Shown: one piece after another, positions 13,757-28,846 of the stretch
Layout of the letters: each line of letters begins with the position of its first letter
Numbering within the stretch: the first letter of the stretch is position 1
Source of the DNA: Arthrobacter sp. FW306-2-2C-D06B
GTDB taxonomy: Bacteria > Actinomycetota > Actinomycetes > Actinomycetales > Micrococcaceae
Assembly: GCF_021789175.1 (NCBI RefSeq)
Contig: NZ_CP084560.1
Span: 372,001 to 436,000, forward strand
Direction: 5' to 3'
DNA length: 64,000 nucleotides
Position numbers and translations under genes: made by a program
Notes under the pieces: generated by a model
Database searches by the model: none
What the model saw: the letters and a program-made list of their open reading frames with translations, nothing else
What the model was told of the DNA's origin: nothing

Positions 13757-13844
13757 GGAGAATTCGCCTAGCGGCCTATGGCGCACGCCTGGAACGCGTG
13801 TTGGGTTAACGCCCTCGGGGGTTCAAATCCCCCATTCTCCGCCA
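13757..13844 (+). tRNA. tRNA-Ser(GGA); left prophage attachment site
   Basis: 88 nt. Acceptor stem GGAGAAT pairs with ATTCTCC, the anticodon is GGA, there is a long class II variable arm, T-arm GGGGGTTCAAATCCCCC, and an encoded CCA. An integrase gene starts 99 bases downstream, so the tRNA 3' half is very probably attL. The second copy of the tRNA end (attR) is not in the window. Confidence 0.95.
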
Positions 13845-13850
13845 GAAGTG

Positions 13851-13885
13851 CCCCGGAATCTCGCGGATTCCGGGGCATCTTTTTT
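13851..13885 (+). terminator. Terminator after tRNA-Ser
   Basis: A 10-bp stem CCCCGGAATC/GATTCCGGGG (13851-13860, 13866-13875), 5-base loop, then a T6 run. The same stem recurs at 17365-17389. Confidence 0.85.
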
Positions 13886-13942
13886 GTCTTGTTGACGAAA
13901 CCCCGGATTTTGTTGACAGACCTGCGCCCTATGATGGGCGAC

Positions 13943-15073
13943 ATGGCAAGCATCCGAGAACGGTCGAGGGCAGACGGCAGCATCAAGCATGAAGTGCTCT
14001 GGCGCGATTCGGACACCGGCAAGCAGACCTCGTACGGTCTGTCTAGCTCGGAAGAAGCGCTTCGCTTCAAGAGGCTCATTGAAGCCAACGGAAACTCCCT
14101 CACTGCAGTGGAAGAGATCCTGCAAAAGATCAGCATCGGCGGCCCGACCGTCGCCGAGAACATGCAACGGCACATCGAACTACTGACGAGTGCCGGGCCG
14201 GACCAGATCAAACGCTATGGATCTGCTATCAAAAACCACTTCAGCGGACGCCTGGGGAAGTTGCCCGTGGCTGCGGTCGAGCATGAGGACGTCGTCATGT
14301 GGATCAAGTACATGCAGGGAAAGACCTACAAAGGCGAACCGTTGTCGGCCAAGACGATCGCGAACCATCACGGGCTCCTGTCGGCGTCCATGGAGACGGC
14401 AATGCGGCTTAAGCACCGCACCGACAACCCATGCCGGGGGATCAAGCTCCCGAAGGACACTGCCACCGAAGAGAAGATGTACTTCATGACAGCGCAAGCA
14501 TCCCTTGCGGTCGTGAACTCTCACCCAGATCGCTATCAGGTCTTCGTATCCTGCCTACGTGCGACCGGGGCGCGCTTCGGAGAAGTGACCGCTTTCTATG
14601 CGGATGACTTTGACCTCAATGGCGCAGCGCCGTCCGTGCGGGTGGAGCGAGCTTGGAAGCGCGACGAGAATAACCGGTTCTACATCGGACCGCCCAAGAC
14701 GAAGAAGTCTCGACGTACGATCAGTCTGCCGCCGTCGTTCGTGAAGGACGTCCGCCCCCTTGTGGAGGCTACCGATCCGGGCCAGCACGTGTTCCACACC
14801 ACTTACGGGGGCCCGATCCGGCACTCGACATTCTGGCAGTTCTGGAACGACGCCATCGAGACGCTCAAATATCCGAAGGATGACAGGCCGCGCATTCACG
14901 ACATGCGCCACACTCATGCTTCGCTGATGCTCGCAGGGGGCATGAGTATCTATGAACTGTCGAGAAGGCTGGGTCACGAGAGCATCCAAACCACGATCGA
15001 CCGGTATTCACACCTCGTGCCGGACGCCCACTTCCGGGCAATCGACATTGCAGAGAAAGCGCTTGAGGCATAG
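13943..15073 (+). CDS. int: Phage tyrosine integrase
   Basis: 376 aa from the ATG at 13943 (MASIRER is a common integrase start; in-frame ATGs at 13931 and 13934 are alternatives). Order: N-terminal AP2-like arm-binding domain, SAM-like core-binding domain, catalytic domain. Catalytic residues visible are Arg in ATGARFGEV near 211, His-x-x-Arg in HDMRHTH near 319, LGHES and Tyr near 355 (DRYSHL). It integrates into the adjacent tRNA-Ser. The frame that reads through the tRNA from 13778 is not meaningful. Confidence 0.95.
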   Translation: MASIRERSRADGSIKHEVLWRDSDTGKQTSYGLSSSEEALRFKRLIEANGNSLTAVEEILQKISIGGPTVAENMQRHIELLTSAGPDQIKRYGSAIKNHFSGRLGKLPVAAVEHEDVVMWIKYMQGKTYKGEPLSAKTIANHHGLLSASMETAMRLKHRTDNPCRGIKLPKDTATEEKMYFMTAQASLAVVNSHPDRYQVFVSCLRATGARFGEVTAFYADDFDLNGAAPSVRVERAWKRDENNRFYIGPPKTKKSRRTISLPPSFVKDVRPLVEATDPGQHVFHTTYGGPIRHSTFWQFWNDAIETLKYPKDDRPRIHDMRHTHASLMLAGGMSIYELSRRLGHESIQTTIDRYSHLVPDAHFRAIDIAEKALEA

Positions 15074-17282: not shown

Positions 17283-17356
17283 AGCGGTCGACGCACTGGA
17301 GCGACGCACGACTCATGATCGTGAGGTCGGGAGATCGAGCCTCCCCACCGCTACCA
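17283..17356 (+). tRNA. Degenerate tRNA-Met(CAT)-like element
   Basis: 74 nt. Acceptor pairs 6 of 7 (AGCGGTC with CACCGCT). The anticodon arm is perfect (CACGA-CTCATGA-TCGTG) with anticodon CAT, the T-stem is perfect (GGGAG/CTCCC) and CCA is encoded. Defects: T54 is A, U8 is G, and the D-arm has only a 3-bp stem. Either a decaying phage tRNA or the remnant of an older integration site. A terminator with the same stem as that of tRNA-Ser follows. Confidence 0.5.
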
Positions 17357-18087: not shown

Positions 18088-18798
18088 ATGTGCGGACGCT
18101 ACGTTGTTTCGAAATCTACTGCTGACCTGATGGCTGCCTTCGACGTCCATGAGTCCTACGTCGATGAGCTTAAACCTTCCTACAATGTGGCGCCGACTGA
18201 CGCGGTCCCGTTGATCCTGGACCGTAGCTCCGGGGAAGGTGAGCCTGTGACGAGGAAGCTGGTCACGGCTCGCTGGGGCTTGGTGCCGTCGTGGGCGAAA
18301 GATCCCAAAGGCGGTGCGCGACTCATCAACGCTCGGGTGGAAACCGTCACCGAGAAGCCGTCCTTCCGCAAAGCAGTCTCGGCGCGACGCGGGTTGCTCG
18401 TCGGCGACGGGTATTACGAGTGGGAGAAGAAACCCGGCGGCGGGAAGATCCCGACCTATCTGCACGACGCCGATGACCAGATCCTCGCCTTCGCGGCATT
18501 GTTCGAGAACTGGCCGGATCCGGCGTTGCCGGACGGACACCCTGAGAAGTGGTTGCGGACGGCCACGATCATCACGACGGCGGCCTCAGACGCGCTCGGC
18601 CACATCCATGACCGCACACCGCTCATTGTCCCGGCGGAAATGTTCTCGGACTGGCTCGACCCTGAAACGACGTCCGAGGCTGACGTCCGAGCTTTGCTCG
18701 ACTCGATGCCCGAACCCCACCTCGTACCCCGAGTGGTGAGCGACAAGGTCAACTACGTGCGGAACAACGGCCCCGAACTGATCGAGGCGGCGGCATGA
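18088..18798 (+). CDS. SRAP-domain protein (HMCES/YedK family)
   Basis: 236 aa starting MCGRYV, where Cys2 is the catalytic nucleophile exposed after Met removal. Other family motifs are YNVAPTD, ARWGLVPSWA, NARVETV, YYEWEK and the His in RTPLIVP. Family members form covalent DNA-protein crosslinks with abasic sites in single-stranded DNA. The stop overlaps the HNH gene's ATG, so the two are probably made together. SRAP proteins also occur in phages, where they may protect replicating DNA. Confidence 0.93.
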   Translation: MCGRYVVSKSTADLMAAFDVHESYVDELKPSYNVAPTDAVPLILDRSSGEGEPVTRKLVTARWGLVPSWAKDPKGGARLINARVETVTEKPSFRKAVSARRGLLVGDGYYEWEKKPGGGKIPTYLHDADDQILAFAALFENWPDPALPDGHPEKWLRTATIITTAASDALGHIHDRTPLIVPAEMFSDWLDPETTSEADVRALLDSMPEPHLVPRVVSDKVNYVRNNGPELIEAAA

Positions 18799-19475
18799 AC
18801 GACGACGACGGCGTGACGGGCCAGCGGCAGTCGAAAGCGTTTGAGCTCGAAGCCAAGCACATAGCGCTGCTGAGTCCGTCCATGGGTGGTCCGCGGCGCA
18901 AGTCGCCCCAAAAGCCAAGGAAGCCACCGCCGCCGAAGGTGGATCCACCGGAACTCTTGATACCAGTCAGCGAGATGACAGCGGAGAGGTGGGCCGCTTG
19001 GGACTGGCCGGCCGATCACCTCATGCTGCCATGGGACAAACGAAAAGTAGCGTTAATCCTTTGGCGCAGGGACGGAAATATTTGCCAAGTCTGCGGGCTG
19101 AAAGTGGATATCTCACTCCGGAAGAGTCACCCCGGCATGGCCAGCTGCGACCACATCATCCCGTTGCGCCGGTACGAAGCGAAATATGACACCCAGCACC
19201 TGAATGTGTGGGGGAACGTGAAGCTGGCGCATCTCTATTGCAACACGGCGCACGCCGATTTCGACGCCCGGTTTATCGCCGTGGAGGACTATCGAACCAT
19301 GCTAAGGGCGGCGACCGCCAGGTTCGAAAGTACGGGATCTTGCCCGCCCCCGAGGACTGCGATGCTCGGAATCGACGCACCCCTCCTGACTCCTGCATGG
19401 GAGGCCGAACTTCTCCACGGCCGCCCGACCGGGACATTCGGCGAAGAATGGAGCGACACGCGGACCGAGGCTTGA
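18795..19475 (+). CDS. HNH endonuclease
   Basis: 226 aa. The N-terminal ~70 residues are basic and Pro-rich (PQKPRKPPPPKVDPP), then an HNH domain: CQVCGLKVD, SCDHIIPLRRY, LNVWGNVKLAHLYCN. Zinc-binding cysteines and catalytic Asp-His are present. ATGA overlap with the SRAP gene suggests a functional pair, perhaps nick or abasic-site related. A homing or restriction role is possible. Confidence 0.88.
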   Translation: MNDDDGVTGQRQSKAFELEAKHIALLSPSMGGPRRKSPQKPRKPPPPKVDPPELLIPVSEMTAERWAAWDWPADHLMLPWDKRKVALILWRRDGNICQVCGLKVDISLRKSHPGMASCDHIIPLRRYEAKYDTQHLNVWGNVKLAHLYCNTAHADFDARFIAVEDYRTMLRAATARFESTGSCPPPRTAMLGIDAPLLTPAWEAELLHGRPTGTFGEEWSDTRTEA

Positions 19476-19952: not shown

Positions 19953-20522
19953 ATGGGAAAGATCTGGACCGTAGTCTTCGGCATTGGATTCGCGCTAGGC
20001 GCGGTCATTTGTTACCTGTTCCAAGCCGTGGTCGGGGCATCCACGCGCCCGGATCCAAACGTGAGCCTTAAGGACTGGCTGACCGTCATTCTTGCGGGCT
20101 CGGCCCTAATCGTGTCCCTCGCCGCCCTTTCATTCAATCGTAGGAAGGCAAAACAGGACACATTCCTTTCGATCCACGACAAATTGATTGCGTTGGATCT
20201 CCAAGAAGGGCGCCGCCTACTCTTCGAAAAGATCAACTCCCCCGAGGACGCCGACCGGTTGCTCCAAGAAGACATTGCGAGCTATCACAAAATCAACAGA
20301 GCCCTCGCCATGTACGACGTGCTTGGACTCTATGTGAAGCGGCGGTATGTCGTGAAAAGTTGGGTTTTGGAGGAATGGGGGCCAGGCCTGGCTAAGGCTC
20401 GTGTTCCGGGAAAGCATTTCATAGCCCATCGCACCAAACAGGGCGTACCGTCCAGTTGGAAGAACTTTGACAGCCTAAGCCTGGACGCGCTCACCGGAAG
20501 CCCGAAGAACAAGATTCAATGA
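19953..20522 (+). CDS. Membrane protein with cytoplasmic helical domain (DUF4760-like)
   Basis: 189 aa. Two transmembrane segments (about residues 5-27 and 44-62), then a soluble helical region (FLSIHDKLIALDLQEGRRLLF) like the DUF4760-type phage and bacterial proteins. Overlaps the next gene (ATGA). A role in superinfection exclusion or signalling is possible but not shown. Confidence 0.65.
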   Translation: MGKIWTVVFGIGFALGAVICYLFQAVVGASTRPDPNVSLKDWLTVILAGSALIVSLAALSFNRRKAKQDTFLSIHDKLIALDLQEGRRLLFEKINSPEDADRLLQEDIASYHKINRALAMYDVLGLYVKRRYVVKSWVLEEWGPGLAKARVPGKHFIAHRTKQGVPSSWKNFDSLSLDALTGSPKNKIQ

Positions 20523-21163
20523 GTGCAAGTCCATCCGCGCTCAAGTACAGGCGGTGCACCGAGGGTTTTGCTGTTCGCTCTGGAGCAGTGCAGAGTTGGC
20601 CCATGATATTTCGACGTCGGCGGCACAATCGCTCGAATGTTGCACCGAGCACATGGACTGAAGAACATGCCAAGTCCTTGTTCACTTATGAAATGCTCCT
20701 GCAGCGCGAAATGGAACAGGACTCGATGCTGTGGCAGACGCCGACTCTCGCGCTTACCGCGCAAGCTTTCCTGTTGACGATCGCCTTGAACAAGGACTCG
20801 TCTGCACCTGCCGTCTTCGTTTCCGCCGGGCTTGGAGTTCTCGTCGCATTGCTCTCCTTGCAGCTCATGGCAAAACATCGATTCCTCAACGAGCTGGACC
20901 GCGCACAGCTCCACCGGATCGAAGATGACTTGACCATTCCGCACATCAGCCGGCGCTCGTACTTCTACGCAGAGGGGGTATATCGGGTGCCTGATGAACT
21001 GGCAGGCAAGCATCGAGGAGCCCCAACTAACGAAGGGTTCTTGCAACGGGTGAGCAGCTATTCATTCTGGGTTCGCGGCCTCTGGCTATTCGCCCTGGTC
21101 AACGTCGGCATATTGGCCGTCCAGATCTGGTCGCTCGTGTTCCCGCATCTTCACACGCCATAA
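20519..21163 (+). CDS. Membrane protein, hypothetical
   Basis: 214 aa from the coupled ATG (20519) or 186 aa from the ATG at 20603. Three hydrophobic segments: about residues 78-95, 98-118 and 180-205. The stretch WTEEHAKSLFTYEMLLQREMEQDSML before the first is amphipathic helix. Probably works with the preceding membrane protein; function unknown. Confidence 0.65.
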   Translation: MSASPSALKYRRCTEGFAVRSGAVQSWPMIFRRRRHNRSNVAPSTWTEEHAKSLFTYEMLLQREMEQDSMLWQTPTLALTAQAFLLTIALNKDSSAPAVFVSAGLGVLVALLSLQLMAKHRFLNELDRAQLHRIEDDLTIPHISRRSYFYAEGVYRVPDELAGKHRGAPTNEGFLQRVSSYSFWVRGLWLFALVNVGILAVQIWSLVFPHLHTP

Positions 21164-21188: not shown

Positions 21189-21220
21189 AAAGCCGCCCGC
21201 CGGGGATGACGGCGGGCGGC
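21189..21220. terminator. Terminator closing the late operon
   Basis: 10-bp GC stem (GCCGCCCGCC with GGCGGGCGGC), 9-base loop, and an A-run on the plus side that becomes a T-run on the minus strand. It terminates minus-strand tail transcription and may also serve the plus-strand membrane genes. Confidence 0.8.
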
Positions 21221-21352
21221 TTAGTCAGTAGTCGTGGGCGCGGGTACATTTTGGACGCCATTAGGTTGCCGAGACCCTCAACCCGCGAGGCCGCTCCCGG
21301 CGCGGTAGGGATAGCACATGACGGCAAGATCCGGACCGGTGCACAATCGGAT

Positions 21353-23353
21353 TTATCCAACGGCCACGGCGCGGGAGATCTCCCACCAGCTCGACGTTGC
21401 GGACTCATACCTGAACCTCACAGTGGTGCGCTTGTTGGCCGTCGCGTCATTAGGGGCTGCACCTCCTGCGAACCTGCAGTTCGCAGGGTAGGCGTACGTT
21501 CTGCCGCCAGTAGCATCCTGGATGAACGTGAGGATCAGCTCTTGGCTGTTCGTCGGGTTGTTCACTGTCGTTGAGGCCGCATTCGCTTGCAGGGTGATGT
21601 TGTGCGCATTTCCTTTGGAAACATCGATCGTCACTTCGCCATTCGATGCGAGCGTCTGGCTCGTGGACATGACAGAGCGGATGTTTGTGGGGCCGATCTG
21701 GTCCCTTTGGACGTTCTCAATGATCTTCATCGTGGACAGCCCGCCGACCTGCATGAAGGTGTTACCGTTCCCGTCGGCTGAACGGAACTCGTAGGTGTCC
21801 CCACCGGTGCTAATGGTGGCGGACTGGGTAACGAATGAACCGTCGGCGAGAGTCACCACTGAACCACCGGAGACGCCCGTGAATGACGTGCCGGTTGTAC
21901 CGGTATAGCTGATTGTGCCGCCCGCCGTGTACAGGCTGCCGCTGCTCGGGAAGCCTGCCGTCGATACCACGTTCAGCGTCGTCAGCGGAAGGGTCTGGAC
22001 TCCGGAAACCTTGGCCTTGTACCCGCCAGCCAGTTGTCGCGAGTTGGTCCCGTTGTTGATGCTGCCGCGGAAGACGTTGTATCCGAGGGTGACGTTCGAG
22101 CAGTAGCCGAGCGGCACAGAACCGGCTGCCATGTTGAACCATCGGGTATGGAAGTCAAGCCCGGTGATGTTGTATGAGCTGCCCGTATCGCCAAGCTGCA
22201 CGAGCGTTTCACCCTGGATGTTTTGGCCGTAGATCGAACCGCCGATCCAGCGGACACTCTTCGCGGTGACCCGCATGCCCACGCCGCCCGCGCCGGTTCC
22301 ATCACAGACGCTGTTAAGGAAGGAAACGTCTTCAGTGCCGAGGTCGAAGTTGTAGAGGCCATTGCCCCAGTTGTGCATGTTGACCACCGAAAGGCTGCCG
22401 ACGTTGCCCGAGGTGATGAATCCGGAGCCCCCGTTCCGGGCGCAGAACACATTGGACACTTGGGAGTCGTGCGGGCCTTTGAACAGCCATCCGTCGCCCG
22501 CTGCGTCAGTGATGCGCAGGTTGGTGAAGTGTGCCTCGTTGTCGTAGCCGGCGCTGGATCCGAACTCGGTGTACAGATTCCGGCCCGCCCCGTTCTGGAG
22601 CACAAGATTTTGGAGCCAGTAGGACCGCCCGTAGATCTTGAGAACGTCGCCGCTGCTGTTTCCTGCCTTGTTGCCGTCCAGCACCATGTCATAGACCCCG
22701 AAGCGGTTCGGGGTGCTGTACGCCGAGGGGGTGGAGACGCCGGACAGTGCGGCGAAATTGGCGGACTGGATAAGGTCTTGGTTCGCACCAGCCCATAGCC
22801 GCAGCGCGGACCCGCGAAAAGGCAGGTTCGCGTTAGTTCCGGAGAACACATCGCCACCGAGCCCCAGCCCGCGCAGGTGCACACCCCCGTAAAGGACCAG
22901 TGCCGATGCCGCTCCCGAGGTGTAGACCTCGATGGTGTCACGAATGACAACAGTTCCGCCGCCGGTGGTGTTCGCAGCAATCCCGCCGCCGTTGTTGGCC
23001 GCATTGATCGCCGCCTGAACTGCCGCCGCGTTTGCTTGCGCCTGGGCGCTCGTGACGCCCACCCCGTAGTTGACGGTCCCGAAGCCCTCGGGGTAGAAGA
23101 ACCCCGTCAGAGCGTTGCGTGCCGCCCCCGGAAGTTTCGCATACGTGGCTGAAAGGTCGCTAACGCTCAAGTCGGTCGATGGCCGACCCGCAGCTTGGGC
23201 GGGACTCATATCGAGGCCCGACATCGCGAAGGCTCCCGTGGCCGCGGTCGCCAGGGCTCCAAGCCTGAACAGTCCACGGCGTTTGACGCTACCGCCACCC
23301 CCCAGTGGCGCACCTCGTTCCCCAGATTCGTTATTCACAGTTTTGATCACCAT
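21353..23353 (-). CDS. Beta-helix (pectate-lyase-like) protein with Tat-type signal
   Basis: 666 aa. The N-terminus has KRRGLFRLGALATAATGAFA followed by PAQAAG, a twin-arginine-type signal with an AxA cleavage site, which is not expected in a virion protein. The body is rich in G/N/T beta-helix turns (NNGGGIAANTTGGGTVVIRD onwards), like pectate-lyase/tailspike folds. A phage-type C-terminal domain ends WWEISRAVAVG. It is last in the late operon, after the oppositely oriented polysaccharide cassette. It could be a secreted depolymerase made by the lysogen or a tailspike with a leader; glycan substrate unknown. Confidence 0.75.
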   Translation of the reverse strand: MVIKTVNNESGERGAPLGGGGSVKRRGLFRLGALATAATGAFAMSGLDMSPAQAAGRPSTDLSVSDLSATYAKLPGAARNALTGFFYPEGFGTVNYGVGVTSAQAQANAAAVQAAINAANNGGGIAANTTGGGTVVIRDTIEVYTSGAASALVLYGGVHLRGLGLGGDVFSGTNANLPFRGSALRLWAGANQDLIQSANFAALSGVSTPSAYSTPNRFGVYDMVLDGNKAGNSSGDVLKIYGRSYWLQNLVLQNGAGRNLYTEFGSSAGYDNEAHFTNLRITDAAGDGWLFKGPHDSQVSNVFCARNGGSGFITSGNVGSLSVVNMHNWGNGLYNFDLGTEDVSFLNSVCDGTGAGGVGMRVTAKSVRWIGGSIYGQNIQGETLVQLGDTGSSYNITGLDFHTRWFNMAAGSVPLGYCSNVTLGYNVFRGSINNGTNSRQLAGGYKAKVSGVQTLPLTTLNVVSTAGFPSSGSLYTAGGTISYTGTTGTSFTGVSGGSVVTLADGSFVTQSATISTGGDTYEFRSADGNGNTFMQVGGLSTMKIIENVQRDQIGPTNIRSVMSTSQTLASNGEVTIDVSKGNAHNITLQANAASTTVNNPTNSQELILTFIQDATGGRTYAYPANCRFAGGAAPNDATANKRTTVRFRYESATSSWWEISRAVAVG

Positions 23354-23648
23354 TCCCAGACACGCTGAAGAGACCCTTGATTAACCAAGAAGACGCGCGT
23401 ACGCGGTGCACAGCGTCACGTTGATGACGCACCGACGTGTATCGGTCCTCGCTGGTAAATCGACGTGTCCAAAACATACTGTCGCCCGGTTTGCCCGTTC
23501 GACAGTACTAACTACGCGTCTTTAGCTGGTAACACTCGCTTTCTGGCACCTATGGGGAGCCTGGCGTCGCCTGCGGGCAACAACGACTACTCCCTTAGGT
23601 CCTCGATGGCTGGCACGCCGTCCACAATTCGACCCCTAAGATGAGGTC

Positions 23649-24734
23649 ATGAATATTGGGGGGAAATCCAACCTGCCTAGCTTGACCGGATTGCGTTACT
23701 TGGCCGCAGCGTTGGTACTCGTTAGCCATGCTGCGCCAGTTCTAGCCGCCGGCACGGTGATCGATCAATTTGGAAGCGGCGGATACGTCGGGGTCACATT
23801 CTTCTTCGTGCTGTCCGGGTTCATTCTGACGTGCTCGCGACGAGACGGTGATACGAAAGCCAGCTTTTACCGCAGACGGTTCGCACGGATTTACCCGCTC
23901 TATTTTGTTACTTGGCTGCTGGCTGTCGCTGTCTCGTTCGTGTCGGGCGCCGACAAGTCGGTGACAGGAATCGTGCTGAGCTTGGTTCTCCTTCAGGCAT
24001 GGGTTCCTGATCCGCTGGTTTACGGGGCCGGCAATCCTCCTGGGTGGTCGCTATCAGCCGAGGCCTTCTTCTATGCGGTATTCCCATTCATCCGCTTCCG
24101 GAACCGTGCCGGACGAGCAACCGCGACTCTCATACTCTGCGCCACAGCGTTTACGGTGTTGGGTACCGTTTACGCGTTTACCCCGTGGTATAGCCACTGG
24201 TTGGCTTATTACAGTCCGATCTACAATCTCGGGGCGTTCCTCGTAGGGATCCTGCTTGCCCGGGCGATCAGGGAGGGATTCGGCAGGTCCATACCGCTTT
24301 CCGGAGCTCTTGCGTTCGTTGGTGTCAGTTACATCGCGTTGATCATGTTCGCCCCCACAGGCCTGAGGGGTTTTCTCGACGCCGCGATGCTCCCATCCGT
24401 CATCGCTCTGATTGCTGCGGCGGCGAACGCTGACATACAAGGCGTGCGGACCTTTTGGTCACGTCCGTTCGTAGAGAAGCTGGGGCAATGGTCTTTCGCC
24501 CTATATCTGGTGCACTACTCATTGGCCCGGTTGCTGGAGAAGTTGCTCCACGGACCGCTCCACACTAATCCTGTGGTCGGTGCTGTGCTCGTGATCTTCT
24601 TCCTTGCCGCCGCCACGGCCGCGTCCTGGCTGGCCTATAAGTTTGTCGAACACCCGATGGAACGCCTACTTCGGGGCCCACGCGGACGACGCACAAAACA
24701 GTCCGAAGATCTGGTGCCAGATCGTGCTGGATAG
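23649..24734 (+). CDS. Acyltransferase-3 family membrane protein
   Basis: 361 aa with about ten transmembrane helices. Family motifs: LTGLRYLAAALVLVSHAAPV with the conserved His, YVGVTFFFVLSGFIL, FYRRRFARIYPLYF and PPGWSLSAEAFFY. Such enzymes O-acylate cell-surface polysaccharides. In phages they alter the host receptor (seroconversion). It lies on the strand opposite to the late genes, 35 bases before the O-antigen ligase-like gene, and has a 295-base leader containing its likely promoter. Confidence 0.9.
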   Translation: MNIGGKSNLPSLTGLRYLAAALVLVSHAAPVLAAGTVIDQFGSGGYVGVTFFFVLSGFILTCSRRDGDTKASFYRRRFARIYPLYFVTWLLAVAVSFVSGADKSVTGIVLSLVLLQAWVPDPLVYGAGNPPGWSLSAEAFFYAVFPFIRFRNRAGRATATLILCATAFTVLGTVYAFTPWYSHWLAYYSPIYNLGAFLVGILLARAIREGFGRSIPLSGALAFVGVSYIALIMFAPTGLRGFLDAAMLPSVIALIAAAANADIQGVRTFWSRPFVEKLGQWSFALYLVHYSLARLLEKLLHGPLHTNPVVGAVLVIFFLAAATAASWLAYKFVEHPMERLLRGPRGRRTKQSEDLVPDRAG

Positions 24735-24769
24735 AATCAGGCGAGACTTGGCCGACGCAGGGGGAACAC

Positions 24770-26317
24770 GTGAGCATGCCGATTGAATGGGTCAAACGCG
24801 AAGGGGCAATGATTGTCCTCTTCGTCTTGACCCTCGCTGGTGGTGCCTATGGAGCTATGAACGGGCTAAACGGGTTGACCGTTGTTATTGGGATCATGGC
24901 GTTTCTGATCGTCTTGGTCATTGGACTCACCCGCCCCAAGATGACGCCCTACATCATCGTTTTTTTCACAGTCTTTGATCGCGACCTACACCTTTCAGGT
25001 CCAGTTCAGCTAACTTCCTTGACCATCGTTCTCTTCTTGCTTGCGCCAGGATTCCTGCGCGTCATCATGACGGGCAAAGCGGTCCCCCGGTTCGCCCGGG
25101 TTGGCATTTGGATGCTTATTTTCGGACTTATCGTCGCGTCTCTCGCGTCAGCGCAGCCGGACCTCGCTTGGGCTGGTCTAGTGCGTTGGGTACCTGCGCT
25201 CATCATGATCATGGGCGTCGGATCACTTTGCATCACCGAAGAGGGCATGTCCCGCCGAGTCGCCAATGCTCTCGTTTACGGCGGCGCGGTTTGCGGCGCC
25301 TTCGGCATCCTGCAACGCAGTGGCAGGTACTGGCTGGTTGGGCCGCCGTATGCACCGGACGTCACGGATTCAACGTTCGGCTACTACACCAACTTCGCCA
25401 ACTTCGAAGCTCTTGCGGCCGTCGTTGGCGTTAGCTTGATCATTTCCGGCCTCAGGTTGCGCCGTCGGCTGCCTCTCCTCATTACGGCGAGCACCCTGCT
25501 TTGTGTCTATATGGTTGCGACGTCATATTCGCGTGGCGCGGTTGGGCTCGTTGCGGTCGGCCTACTGGTGATCTTGCTGAAGGAGCTTGCCCGGCCATTC
25601 CGATTCTTCGTCGTAGTCGGATTATTGAGCTTGATGGGCTGGCTCGTGGTGCAGCTTGCCCCAGCCGAACTCCTTGCGGAACTGATCGGGAAGTTCACCA
25701 GCTCTCAGAATGGCGATATCGTTCGATCGCAACTTCAGGCCGGCGGCCTCCAAATGCTGGCAAAGTCGCCGCTAGGCATCGGATTCAACAACTTCAGCGC
25801 CCTCATATCATCCGGAGACATTTACTCAACACTGGCACTGGCGCATTCCCACAACACTTTCGTCCAGATGGGGTTGGATGCCGGATGGCTTGGCGGCGCC
25901 GGATTCCTAATACTCGTTGTCGGCGCTTTCTGGCGCGCGTTCCGGTCCAAGGGCGGCGTCGTAGCTGTGGGCTTCGGCGCCGCCCTTGCCGGTTTCTTGG
26001 TGCAGGTGTCGCAGGACTATTTCTTTTTCGAAGAAGCATCCCTTGTTGCGTTCGGCCTTCTGGTTGCCGGTTCCGTGGCCGGCCTACGGCAGAAGCGCAC
26101 CGTAGAGGGTGATTCCTTGGGCACCAGTGACGATTCCATTGGAGATATTTCCGGGAAGGTCGGCTTGCGCGGCGATCGAACCAGCGAGGCGGGGAGAGCG
26201 AGCAAGCTCGGCCCCGTTTACCGGGATTACGCCGGACAACTTAGGTCCCGTAGTTCCAACAAAGAGAACGCCAAGAGCGTACCTCTGACCAGCGACCTTA
26301 GACCAGGACGCCGATAG
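24770..26317 (+). CDS. O-antigen ligase/polymerase (Wzy)-like membrane protein
   Basis: 515 aa, GTG start with GGGGG ribosome site. About ten to twelve transmembrane segments with the Wzy_C/ligase motif region (YSRGAVGLVAVGLLVILL; GIGFNNFSALIS; AHSHNTFVQMGLDAGWLG). The last 77 residues (after about 438) are hydrophilic, low-quality sequence encoded entirely antisense to the tailspike gene, so the natural C-terminus seems lost and the frame reads on. Together with the acyltransferase it forms a surface-glycan modifying pair. Confidence 0.85.
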   Translation: MSMPIEWVKREGAMIVLFVLTLAGGAYGAMNGLNGLTVVIGIMAFLIVLVIGLTRPKMTPYIIVFFTVFDRDLHLSGPVQLTSLTIVLFLLAPGFLRVIMTGKAVPRFARVGIWMLIFGLIVASLASAQPDLAWAGLVRWVPALIMIMGVGSLCITEEGMSRRVANALVYGGAVCGAFGILQRSGRYWLVGPPYAPDVTDSTFGYYTNFANFEALAAVVGVSLIISGLRLRRRLPLLITASTLLCVYMVATSYSRGAVGLVAVGLLVILLKELARPFRFFVVVGLLSLMGWLVVQLAPAELLAELIGKFTSSQNGDIVRSQLQAGGLQMLAKSPLGIGFNNFSALISSGDIYSTLALAHSHNTFVQMGLDAGWLGGAGFLILVVGAFWRAFRSKGGVVAVGFGAALAGFLVQVSQDYFFFEEASLVAFGLLVAGSVAGLRQKRTVEGDSLGTSDDSIGDISGKVGLRGDRTSEAGRASKLGPVYRDYAGQLRSRSSNKENAKSVPLTSDLRPGRR

Positions 26318-28357
26318 CGCCCGCGAGGCCCCTGAGAACGTCGTATTCCAGAGGGTTGTGTCATTCGCCGTTGACGCAACGAGCGTCAGATCGCCATTGG
26401 ATGCCACCGAGTAGATGCCAACTCTTGCAAGCGTGGTGCCCGCGGCCGCAGTCCCCAGAACAACCGTATTGATGTTGTTGATCGTCTCGGTGCGGCGCGC
26501 AGTGAAGTAGCTCAGGATAAGCTGTCCCGTCGACAACTGCGGCGAACCCTGCGACATCAACCTTGCGATCGTTTCTTCCCCAGCGTTCAACCTGTCCGGG
26601 TCTTTGTTGAGAGAGTTCAGCGATGAGGCCGCAGCGATGTTGACGGTGCCCAGGACCGTGTCGTTGTCGGTAGTACCAATCATTCCTGCCAGGGTGACCG
26701 CCCCTCCACCTTGAGCCCAGAGCATAGCTGTCACGCCCGAGCAGTTGTACCCGGTTGCGGAAAGGGTTGTGAGCGACTGAAGGACCCCAATCGGATACGC
26801 AGTGCCGACACTGGCCAGTGACGCGATACTAACGTTCCCAAGAGTCGATCCTGCAGATGTGGTGATGCAGTTGAACCCGTTCTCGACGGTGACTTTGGAG
26901 AAGATTGCGTTTGTCACGGCCGCGCCGTTGTTGATACGCAACGCTGACCCTGACGGCGAGTCTCCCTGCACGGCATGAAGGAGCAGTCGCGAGATCGTGC
27001 CTCCCGCAACTAGGACGCCGTTAGGGGCGCCCGATGTTGCAGTGAGCTTCACCCCGGAGACTTCCATCTTGCCAACAGAAGCCCCGACCGAAACCGCGTA
27101 GGCGTCGTTGGGGTCAGGCACGAGGTTGCGGAACACCAGGCGGTCGATACTATTGCCGCCCTGAATAATGACGCAGCCCTTCGACGACCCACCCAGGGAG
27201 CGAACGCCGTCGACCAGCATGTCATCAAACGTGCCGCCCGAGCTGTCGCCGATGAAGACCACGGCGCCATTGGTATCGGGCCCAGTGAGGTTTCGCGCGC
27301 GAATGTCCCGAACAGCGTAGGAGGCGCTGTTGTCCATCGTCTTGCCAGCAATGATCTTGAGGCAAGACGATGTGTATGTCGAGACTTGATAGAGGCCGGT
27401 GTCCACGACAATATCGGTGATGTCGCCAGCGGTGTCCCGAACTCTGTTAGCCCCACCAGTCGAGTCCCCGGCAGTGAGGGAAATAAGGTCATCATGAATC
27501 GACGCCACGACGATGTTGGCGATCCGCCCGTTAGAGGCCGGGCCGTTGACGTGAACAACGTCGGAACCCTGGCGCGGTCCGCCGATGTTCTGCACCGCAA
27601 AACGGGTGCAGTCCCCGACTCCAATAGCGTATTTTCCACCGTTGGAATCAATGGTCCCGTCAGAAATAGTCAGGCCATCAACATGCCGGAAGCGCATGAT
27701 GTGCGCAAGGTAGCTGCCATTCAGGCCGCTGCTCTGGCGGTCCCAAAGTCCACCTAAGACCGTGATGTTCTGATCACGGTCTCCCACTGCAGCGTACTGA
27801 CCACTGACCGTAGTTGAGGCAGCCGCCGCAAGCGTGACAGACGATGCGCTCGTGAATCCGCTGATCGTGGTGTCCAATGGCTTTCCGCCAATGCCGGCGC
27901 CTTGGACAATTACTCGTCGTCCGACATCCGAGGCGGCGAACGGTGCGGTCGCAATCGACTCGTTCGTCGCTGCGGCCGTGAGGACTGCGCTGCCGGATGT
28001 CATGGCGGCGTAGATAGTCCGCGTGTTATTCACAACGGCAGCGTTTACGAGCAGATTGTCCTGCGTTCCGATGACCTGGGACATTTTCGCATCGCGCATA
28101 TCCAGAGTCGTGTTCGACGGGATGACAAGCTTAGTGAAAATGAAGTCGCCAACAAGCCTCACCGTCTTGCGGACGCCAAAGGTTGACCCGGCCGCAAGTG
28201 CCGCGTTAATTCGTACTGTCTGATCGGCGGTCCCGTTCGATGCGAGCACCGTCGCAAATGACGCGTTCTGCGAGGCTTGGGTTAGGTAGGCGGGGACGTG
28301 CTTTTCTCGGAGTCGGCCCGTTGCCGGATCAAGGCTTGGTCCTGTGAATGTAGCCAT
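26084..28357 (-). CDS. Tailspike/tail fibre protein with beta-helix domain
   Basis: 757 aa. Starts MATFTGPSLDPATGRLREKHVPAYL, typical of a virion-anchoring N-terminus. It continues with a parallel beta-helix region rich in IDSNGG, ITDIVVDTG and SNGRIANIVV repeats. The C-terminal domain ends GITLYGALLP. Probably recognises or cleaves a host glycan. Its 3' 234 bases are shared, antisense, with the O-antigen ligase-like gene. Confidence 0.85.
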   Translation of the reverse strand: MATFTGPSLDPATGRLREKHVPAYLTQASQNASFATVLASNGTADQTVRINAALAAGSTFGVRKTVRLVGDFIFTKLVIPSNTTLDMRDAKMSQVIGTQDNLLVNAAVVNNTRTIYAAMTSGSAVLTAAATNESIATAPFAASDVGRRVIVQGAGIGGKPLDTTISGFTSASSVTLAAAASTTVSGQYAAVGDRDQNITVLGGLWDRQSSGLNGSYLAHIMRFRHVDGLTISDGTIDSNGGKYAIGVGDCTRFAVQNIGGPRQGSDVVHVNGPASNGRIANIVVASIHDDLISLTAGDSTGGANRVRDTAGDITDIVVDTGLYQVSTYTSSCLKIIAGKTMDNSASYAVRDIRARNLTGPDTNGAVVFIGDSSGGTFDDMLVDGVRSLGGSSKGCVIIQGGNSIDRLVFRNLVPDPNDAYAVSVGASVGKMEVSGVKLTATSGAPNGVLVAGGTISRLLLHAVQGDSPSGSALRINNGAAVTNAIFSKVTVENGFNCITTSAGSTLGNVSIASLASVGTAYPIGVLQSLTTLSATGYNCSGVTAMLWAQGGGAVTLAGMIGTTDNDTVLGTVNIAAASSLNSLNKDPDRLNAGEETIARLMSQGSPQLSTGQLILSYFTARRTETINNINTVVLGTAAAGTTLARVGIYSVASNGDLTLVASTANDTTLWNTTFSGASRALSASWSKVAGQRYALGVLFVGTTGPKLSGVIPVNGAELARSPRLAGSIAAQADLPGNISNGIVTGAQGITLYGALLP

Positions 28358-28366
28358 CGGAGCTCC

Positions 28367-28846
28367 TTAGAGAGTGATGATGTAGGCGTCAGAGTCGGAC
28401 GGCGAAACGATCACGCTGCCGTCCGACTTGGTCGTGATGATGAATGAGTCAGTGTCTGTCGGGTTTACGGCCACGCCGCCGCCGGTCGCAGTGGCGGCAG
28501 CTGCCTCAGCCGCTGCTTGGGCGGCGACGGCCGAGGCCCCTGCGGTTTCCGCTGCGACCTTTGCAGCCTTCGCCTCGTCTAGCACGGCCGTCGGAGACGA
28601 CAGGAAGCCGGTCAAGCCGCCACCGCTCCACTTCACACGCGGAGATGGCGCACGGAAATTTGGTCCGAACGCGTCAGGTGACGAAGTCAATGGGTTGGCC
28701 AAATTCAGCCCGTTTGGGTCCGTCAAGATGAGCGGCGTTGCGCTTGCAAGGTCCAGTTCGTCGTAGATCGTGATCTGCGCGTTCGGTGCACGGGTGAATG
28801 TCACGGCATCAACGAATAGGGGTGCCTCAAAAGGGTATGTGGTCAT
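28367..28846 (-). CDS. Phage minor structural (tail) protein
   Basis: 159 aa. N-terminal beta-rich part (FEAPLFVDAVTFTRAPNAQITIYDELD), then an alanine-rich helical stretch (AKAAKVAAETAGASAVAAQAA), then a repeated DSFIITTKSDGSVIVSPSDSDAYIIT ending. Such proteins usually join fibres or spikes to the tail. Start overlaps the holin gene's stop. Confidence 0.7.
   Translation of the reverse strand: MTTYPFEAPLFVDAVTFTRAPNAQITIYDELDLASATPLILTDPNGLNLANPLTSSPDAFGPNFRAPSPRVKWSGGGLTGFLSSPTAVLDEAKAAKVAAETAGASAVAAQAAAEAAAATATGGGVAVNPTDTDSFIITTKSDGSVIVSPSDSDAYIITL

Follow-up and report, generated by a model that had tools for sequence, protein, structure and literature searches.

A stretch of 64,000 nucleotides from the 4.56-Mb chromosome of Arthrobacter sp. 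FW306-2-2C-D06B, referred to here as the window, carries an integrated prophage with a two-gene cassette for surface-polysaccharide enzymes: an acyltransferase-3 (AT3) gene and a gene of the Wzy_C family (wzy). The cassette fills a slot of variable content, bounded by the last tail gene, which encodes a tailspike-like protein (the spike), and by the integrase end of the prophage. By analogy with better-studied phages, we think it probable that the cassette serves a temperate phage of actinobacteria in lysogenic conversion. The wzy gene shares its 3' end with the spike gene in one codon register, and on the other side of the cassette lies a divergent gene whose product joins a spike-type body to a twin-arginine translocation (Tat) leader (the Tat-leader protein).

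The cassette and its place in the prophage

The cassette is inside an integrated prophage, as shown by a tRNA-Ser gene with a repeated 25-bp attachment (att) core and an adjoining integrase open reading frame (ORF) (Table 1). The second, perfect copy of the core lies beyond the window at G000:C1:437484-437508, with no further copy in the genome, and the distance between the two copies, about 51.7 kb, gives the extent of the prophage. The integrase ORF as listed begins inside the tRNA-Ser gene, and its true start is probably later. Late genes of the prophage run leftwards, toward the integrase end.

Both cassette genes, which an earlier reading made from the letters of the window (the sequence-only reading) had taken for plus-strand membrane enzymes, were borne out by Pfam. 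The AT3 protein (361 aa) matches PF01757 (E 7.6e-33; 114.4 bits, above the curated cut-off of 31) as well as PHROG 3333, an O-acetyltransferase (E 1.9e-53). The Wzy protein (515 aa) matches PF04932 (E 7.7e-12; 45.7 bits, above the curated cut-off of 31.7) and, with 12 hydrophobic segments, is a many-pass membrane protein. The two genes are spaced 35 bp apart, and 8.6 kb separate the AT3 gene from the integrase, with the Tat-leader gene in between. An RXXR motif has been reported to be essential in Oac and GtrC-BTP1 (passages of PMC4413052); the AT3 protein has five matches to it, among them RFAR at residue 77, none aligned to GtrC.

The spike gene, on the minus strand, encodes 757 aa and is the last clear tail gene. 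The C-terminal part of its product is related to the spikes of phages LonelyBoi and Doggs, and its comparison with the PDB gave a decoration-protein match only (E 5e-4). Among 396 genomes of the order, 6, its own included, had a match to a spike profile; of these, L035 and L036 were inspected. The GC content at third codon positions is 0.657 in the AT3 gene, 0.674 in wzy and 0.677 in the spike gene, and higher (0.755-0.811) in the four other prophage genes checked; this lower value common to all three fits their joint acquisition.

The sequence-only reading had placed the cassette inside the late operon. The pair instead sits after the last clear tail gene, where related prophages differ. Six sibling loci in IMG/VR carry the minor tail gene at 76-85% identity, and five of them are usable, L012 being incomplete. 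Following the last spike, the slot is filled by an AT3 gene in L009, an AT3-SGNH fusion in L011, a GDSL-like gene in L013, and a Wzy_C-like gene with a Tat-leader protein, on the late strand, in L008; in L010 it is empty, and the empty site for which the sequence-only reading had advised looking is thus present in one of the five.

A similar layout is found in other phages. In LonelyBoi, Doggs, Murp, Hum25 and Salmonella BTP1, an acyl- or acetyltransferase gene is convergent with the last gene of the tail operon, with an integrase within about 3.5 kb. The two genes overlap by 11 bp in LonelyBoi, 51 bp in Doggs and 15 bp in Murp, and are separated by 3 bp in Hum25 and 39 bp in BTP1. In Kukla a hydrolase gene lies between the last tail-operon gene and the acyltransferase, while in Pitbull a short annotated acetyltransferase overlaps by 4 bp. 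These phages, found through AT3 or spike homologs, are a selected sample. Four of the 24 phage records with an AT3 homolog were read (Kukla, Hum25, Murp and BTP1), and all four have the convergent arrangement, in Kukla with the intervening hydrolase; a convergent acyl- or acetyltransferase also occurs in three of the five distinct phages with a spike homolog.

Further searches for the enzymes were less productive. An NCBIfam search with four window proteins of the cassette region led nowhere, and nothing useful came from PDB profile searches for the Wzy and AT3 proteins or from searches for Wzy in phages (blastn, tblastn), viral contigs (single protein, alignment), plasmids and 98 other relatives' genomes. 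The AT3 protein search of viral contigs gave two distant loci only, L014 and L015. Genome contigs contained 12 Wzy loci, two of which (L016 and L017, whose ORFs were inspected) are by eye chromosomal polysaccharide clusters. The host itself has a cluster with Wzz, flippase, Wzy and sugar-transferase genes and, prophage wzy aside, one Wzy_C gene in its genome. Because of this cluster, a second Wzy and an acyltransferase would have a plausible substrate.

Table 1. Positions of the prophage features in the window and the basis of each call
Feature	Position	Strand	Basis or remark
tRNA-Ser(GGA)	13757..13844	+	attachment site; ends in att core 13820-13844
Tyrosine integrase ORF	13778..15073	+	PF00589
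Tat-leader protein, spike-type beta-helix body	21353..23353	-	leader alignment, PHROG 9017, C5-epimerase profile match
Divergent intergenic region	23354..23648		presumed site of both promoters
AT3 protein	23649..24734	+	PF01757, PHROG 3333
Wzy_C-type polymerase or ligase	24770..26317	+	PF04932
In-register antisense overlap of wzy and spike 3' ends	26084..26317		codon register and fit in relatives
Last tail gene, tailspike-like	26084..28357	-	C-terminal part akin to LonelyBoi and Doggs spikes
Tail adaptor-like protein	28367..28846	-	homologs precede the spike in siblings

The shared 3' ends of wzy and the spike gene

The antisense overlap described in the sequence-only reading is exact. It is convergent and 234 bp long, and identical triplets serve both genes, as 77 codons and the stop of wzy. 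Hydrophobic segments of Wzy extend as far as residue 436 and the overlap starts at codon 439, so that the antisense-encoded part is a polar tail. The length of this open frame was rejected as evidence, since 12 of 13 minus-strand genes examined have a stop-free antisense run of at least 77 codons in the same register. Because length proves little alone, it is the fit in relatives that gives the overlap its meaning.

We therefore compared the tails of Wzy homologs with known spike ends, to see whether one could be read, codon by codon, as the antisense of the other. Fifteen of the 27 non-self homologs were testable by an anchor motif, and the 12 without the motif were dropped. Of 28 metagenomic spikes, the 14 without the C-terminal Tyr pattern were likewise dropped, and the other 14 were used together with the window's own spike; as a control, 200 shuffles of each tail were put through the same search. 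Four metagenomic homologs, P0005, P0006, P0007 and P0008, which are 53-58% identical to the window Wzy, found their best fit in one spike, P0029 (40.4, 37.7, 58.2 and 47.2 bits, respectively). None of the 200 shuffles of any of these tails reached its score, the largest shuffle score being 18.0 bits, and in all four the spike stop is placed, relative to the Wzy sequence, just where it is in the window. Moderate fits to further spikes exist for some tails (P0007 with P0031, 28.3 bits).

With the boundary fixed, the four tails score 36.0-54.7 bits against P0029 versus -6.2 to 10.8 bits against the window spike, and the window Wzy tail scores 64.6 bits against its own spike versus 1.8 bits against P0029. 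On these alignments, the Wzy tails follow spike type, as genuine overlaps would cause. That the fit is merely inherited similarity among Wzy tails was considered and is weakened, if not fully excluded, by this reciprocal pattern. In a simple count of compatible codons, each of the four tails agrees with P0029 at 23-27 of 28-31 codons.

Compared with these four relatives, the window Wzy extends about 45 codons further into the spike gene, and its tail holds no conserved Wzy residues; its sequence looks dictated by the spike. The overlapping tail had been interpreted as read-through. This term may suit the last 45 or so codons of the window Wzy, but not the overlap as a whole, which appears to have the same boundary in four relatives. 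The overlap is, as far as these comparisons go, inherited or recurrent: one old event and repeated origin are both compatible with them, the closest homolog, P0002 (78% identical), being without the overlap. Neither the wzy nor the spike end has a convincing terminator close by in a scan of 7.5 kb, in which terminator-like sites (6 versus 7.2 expected) were no more numerous in total than in shuffles. A promoter scan gave no sigma-70-like site versus 2.6 expected, and is ill-suited to this bacterial group.

A spike-type protein with a Tat leader

The Tat-leader gene, on the minus strand, encodes 666 aa and starts 295 bp from the AT3 gene, divergently. Its product begins with a twin arginine, a hydrophobic stretch and an A-x-A before the mature part; RRG is invariant in 11 of 11 aligned leaders, and the other leader features were read by eye. 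The sequence-only reading overlooked this leader and took the cassette to lie between two tailspike-like beta-helix proteins. Minus-strand ORFs do flank the cassette and the body of the Tat-leader protein does match beta-helix enzymes, but this protein has a leader, and the spike on the other side has no Pfam or PHROG match. The body profile (A3) matches mannuronan C5-epimerases of known structure, with a best E of 6.6e-12, as well as a pectate lyase (E 2e-4). These matches lie largely within profile positions 76-155, and the enzymes we take to be beta-helices. The protein also matches the tail-fibre family PHROG 9017 (E 6e-4), and a phage tail family is matched by seven of the nine Tat-leader proteins scanned, such beta-helix matches being partly generic. 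Homologs of the body also exist without the leader, e.g., P0058 (82% over 90% of the query), the N-terminus of which resembles sibling tail adaptors instead (38% over 58 aa, E 5e-4).

The leader was found in 10 of 197 other genomes of the genus and in a second copy in the window's own genome. It is 38-76% identical in ten other proteins, the bodies of which differ. The leader alone was absent from the phage records searched, and among 58 IMG/VR loci it was found in L008 only; a search for the Tat-leader protein in plasmids gave nothing useful. Literature searches for a tailspike exported by Tat, or for a conversion locus in Arthrobacter, gave no title or abstract on either, although this does not prove that none exists. 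Flanks were fetched for eight of the ten leader-bearing genomes (all except G530 and G035). In nine chromosomal flanks of about 10 kb on each side, the matches to prophage proteins were the Tat-leader protein and, in one, also the spike. Several of these chromosomal genes are near exopolysaccharide genes, and the second copy belonging to the window's genome lies some 8 kb away from a Wzz gene and 18 kb away from the one further Wzy_C gene of that genome.

An adjacent Wzy_C match is present in 4 of the 11 Tat-leader loci read (the window, L008, L064 and L067), with scores below the Pfam cut-off in L008 and L067; neighbours were scanned with Pfam only where they resembled membrane or sugar enzymes. 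The chromosomal locus L067:7110-11552 repeats the order of the window, with AT3 and then Wzy on one side and a divergent Tat-leader gene on the other, and its AT3 and Wzy enzymes are barely or not detectably related to those of the window. A homolog of the window Wzy (P0015) and one of the Tat-leader protein, leader included (P0065), each come from an NCBI contig of 8829 bp and are probably on one contig.

Six chromosomal Tat-leader genes (L047:12377-13486, L061:8593-10140, L062:8144-10090, L063:8406-10100, L064:9883-11700 and L065:8463-10088), with similar leaders and different bodies, apparently share a site next to a gene that was judged by eye to be lipoyl-E2-like. They represent a variable, apparently exported protein of the genus. 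In the L063 protein, from G044, a 46-aa stretch is 50% identical to the virion spike of the window, hinting at exchange between spikes and exported proteins. Near the Tat-leader gene of G563 lie three consecutive genes, by eye tyrosine recombinases (L068:12981-16125), and a many-pass membrane protein without a Pfam match. In the window, the Tat-leader gene is followed by a strong terminator-like hairpin on the minus strand (21190-21222; 13 pairs, 11 G-C), and directly beyond it is encoded a 214-aa protein (20519-21163) with a match to the 8xMP family of octameric membrane proteins. The stretch from the integrase to the cassette also contains genes for an SOS response associated peptidase (SRAP, 18088-18798) and an HNH protein (18795-19475), and ARAGORN called a tRNA-Met within the prophage at 17283-17356.

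Probable lysogenic conversion and its alternatives

An acetylase and a polymerase change the lysogen's surface polymer in seroconversion by Pseudomonas phage D3 and Salmonella phage epsilon15. A layout like that of the window is found in BTP1, in which the product of the convergent gtrC gene, an AT3-domain protein, modifies the O-antigen, blocks spike cleavage and superinfection, and limits re-adsorption (passages of PMC4413052); its gtr genes are highly expressed in lysogens (passages of PMC7067206). The gtrAC locus of this Lederbergvirus resembles the window in its AT3-domain enzyme (26% identical), which is convergent with the tailspike gene and near an integrase. It differs in its Gram-negative host, the lack of a Wzy gene, a gap in place of the overlap and, in the stretch covered, the lack of a Tat-leader protein. 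Prophage Wzy proteins of A. baumannii (wzyPh1, wzy1Ph and wzy2Ph) alter the linkage between capsule units, and, in a speculation of the authors, a prophage that encodes a depolymerase besides its Wzy would protect its host (passages of PMC9241936 and PMC13228068). These prophages share with the window a prophage-borne Wzy, in the later paper together with a depolymerase gene; unlike it, they act on a Gram-negative capsule, and gene overlap or an exported spike is not mentioned in the passages concerned. Among temperate actinobacterial phages, LonelyBoi, Doggs, Murp, Hum25, Kukla and Pitbull likewise have a tail-operon end that faces an acyl- or acetyltransferase near the integrase, but no Wzy or Tat-leader protein is annotated in the stretches covered, and overlaps are at most 51 bp.

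As in conversion units of the P22/BTP1 type, the window has an integrated prophage with an att repeat and an integrase, and a modifier gene that adjoins and is convergent with a tailspike-like gene on its integrase side. From the BTP1 and A. baumannii precedents and the host polysaccharide cluster, we infer lysogenic conversion and, with it, a glycan change, exclusion, expression in lysogeny, export and co-transfer. AT3 and Wzy would be made in the lysogen from the divergent intergenic region. Wzy would join the repeat units of the host exopolysaccharide through a different linkage and AT3 would acylate them, and the changed polymer would no longer be recognised by the spike of the phage and its kin. 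The outcome would be superinfection exclusion, and released virions would be kept off sister cells. The Tat-leader protein, with its spike-type body and genus-type leader, would be exported folded and trim or process the surface polymer. The cassette sits at the late-operon end, where conversion-type genes are exchanged, and because wzy and spike share DNA in one register there (as presumably in the four relatives too), receptor-maker and receptor-cutter would tend to be transferred as a pair. The proposal of the sequence-only reading that the lysogen remodels the glycan recognised by the spike thus stands by analogy with BTP1 and the A. baumannii prophages.

Several observations weigh against lysogenic conversion or against the overlap as part of it. 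Eleven of the 15 testable Wzy homologs, P0002 included, show no antisense fit. The fit was computed from protein sequences, and even against P0029 each of the four tails has 4 or 5 incompatible codons of 28-31. Against the window spike, the same tails have 19-22 compatible codons, with shuffle maxima of 14-19; because of this excess over shuffles, part of the tail similarity could be common descent. Two phages with a spike homolog, Min1 and DSL-LC01, are without the convergent layout. An AT3 gene is present in none of the six IMG/VR loci with a spike homolog (L028-L033) and in only one (L097) of the 46 with the Tat-protein body, many loci in both sets being incomplete. The host also holds five further AT3 genes, and PF04932 covers O-antigen ligases as well as polymerases.

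It is accordingly possible, though doubtful, that the Wzy_C protein is a ligase attaching glycan to a cell-wall or protein acceptor; the host Wzz and flippase suit polymerase-type assembly, and phage-borne Wzy proteins have been published as polymerases (passages of PMC9241936). The cassette could also serve the host, through an exopolysaccharide change for attachment or stress, with the place beside the spike as a tolerated cargo site. The same three functions stand together in one chromosome (L067) and Tat-leader proteins are chromosomal in nine loci read, but the recurrent link to spike genes in several phages and the BTP1 precedent make this unlikely. That the overlap is a regulatory device, in which convergent wzy and spike transcripts repress each other by collision or antisense pairing and conversion is off during virion production, appears more unlikely still. 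The length of the overlap without a convincing terminator near either end speaks for it, and antisense RNA across the injection and tailspike genes of BTP1, which excludes superinfection when expressed, is a loose precedent (passages of PMC7067206). Other phages with the layout have short overlaps or gaps, however, so the overlap is not required for it; such regulation could also coexist with lysogenic conversion. Least probable is the recent insertion between two tail genes put forward in the sequence-only reading, with a polymerase that lost its own end and reads through by accident into the spike gene: the empty slot of L010, the homologs without such a tail, the 45 or so codons past the relatives' stop and the ease with which same-register antisense frames stay open here all agree with it, but a related spike, read antisense, fits the tails of four homologs (53-58% identical) at the same boundary, and the third-position GC content of the cassette equals that of the spike gene.

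The sequence-only reading had named conservation of both the arrangement and the polymerase C-terminus as counting against it; the arrangement is largely conserved in other phages, and the C-terminus is not, as the tails follow spike type. Surface-sugar change driven by phages is well described in Gram-negative pathogens, and a similar pattern is now seen in soil actinobacteria. New here, and unusual, are the in-register overlap of wzy and spike, apparently common to some relatives, and the spike-type protein with a Tat leader, which is linked to exopolysaccharide genes. If lysogenic conversion is correct, the overlap would account for the way in which genes that make and genes that cut the receptor stay matched in phages although both kinds are exchanged; secreted spikes would be a possible exclusion mechanism. 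We tentatively extend this to a portable lock-and-key unit, a bolder proposal that we hold to be doubtful, in which polymerase and spike move together on shared in-register coding DNA and the lysogen exports through Tat a spike body, of a type that in other phages has no such leader, which strips or alters the receptor before rival virions arrive. If so, exported spikes would exclude superinfection by removing the receptor, and phages would exchange spike bodies with a variable gene of the chromosome close to the exopolysaccharide locus.

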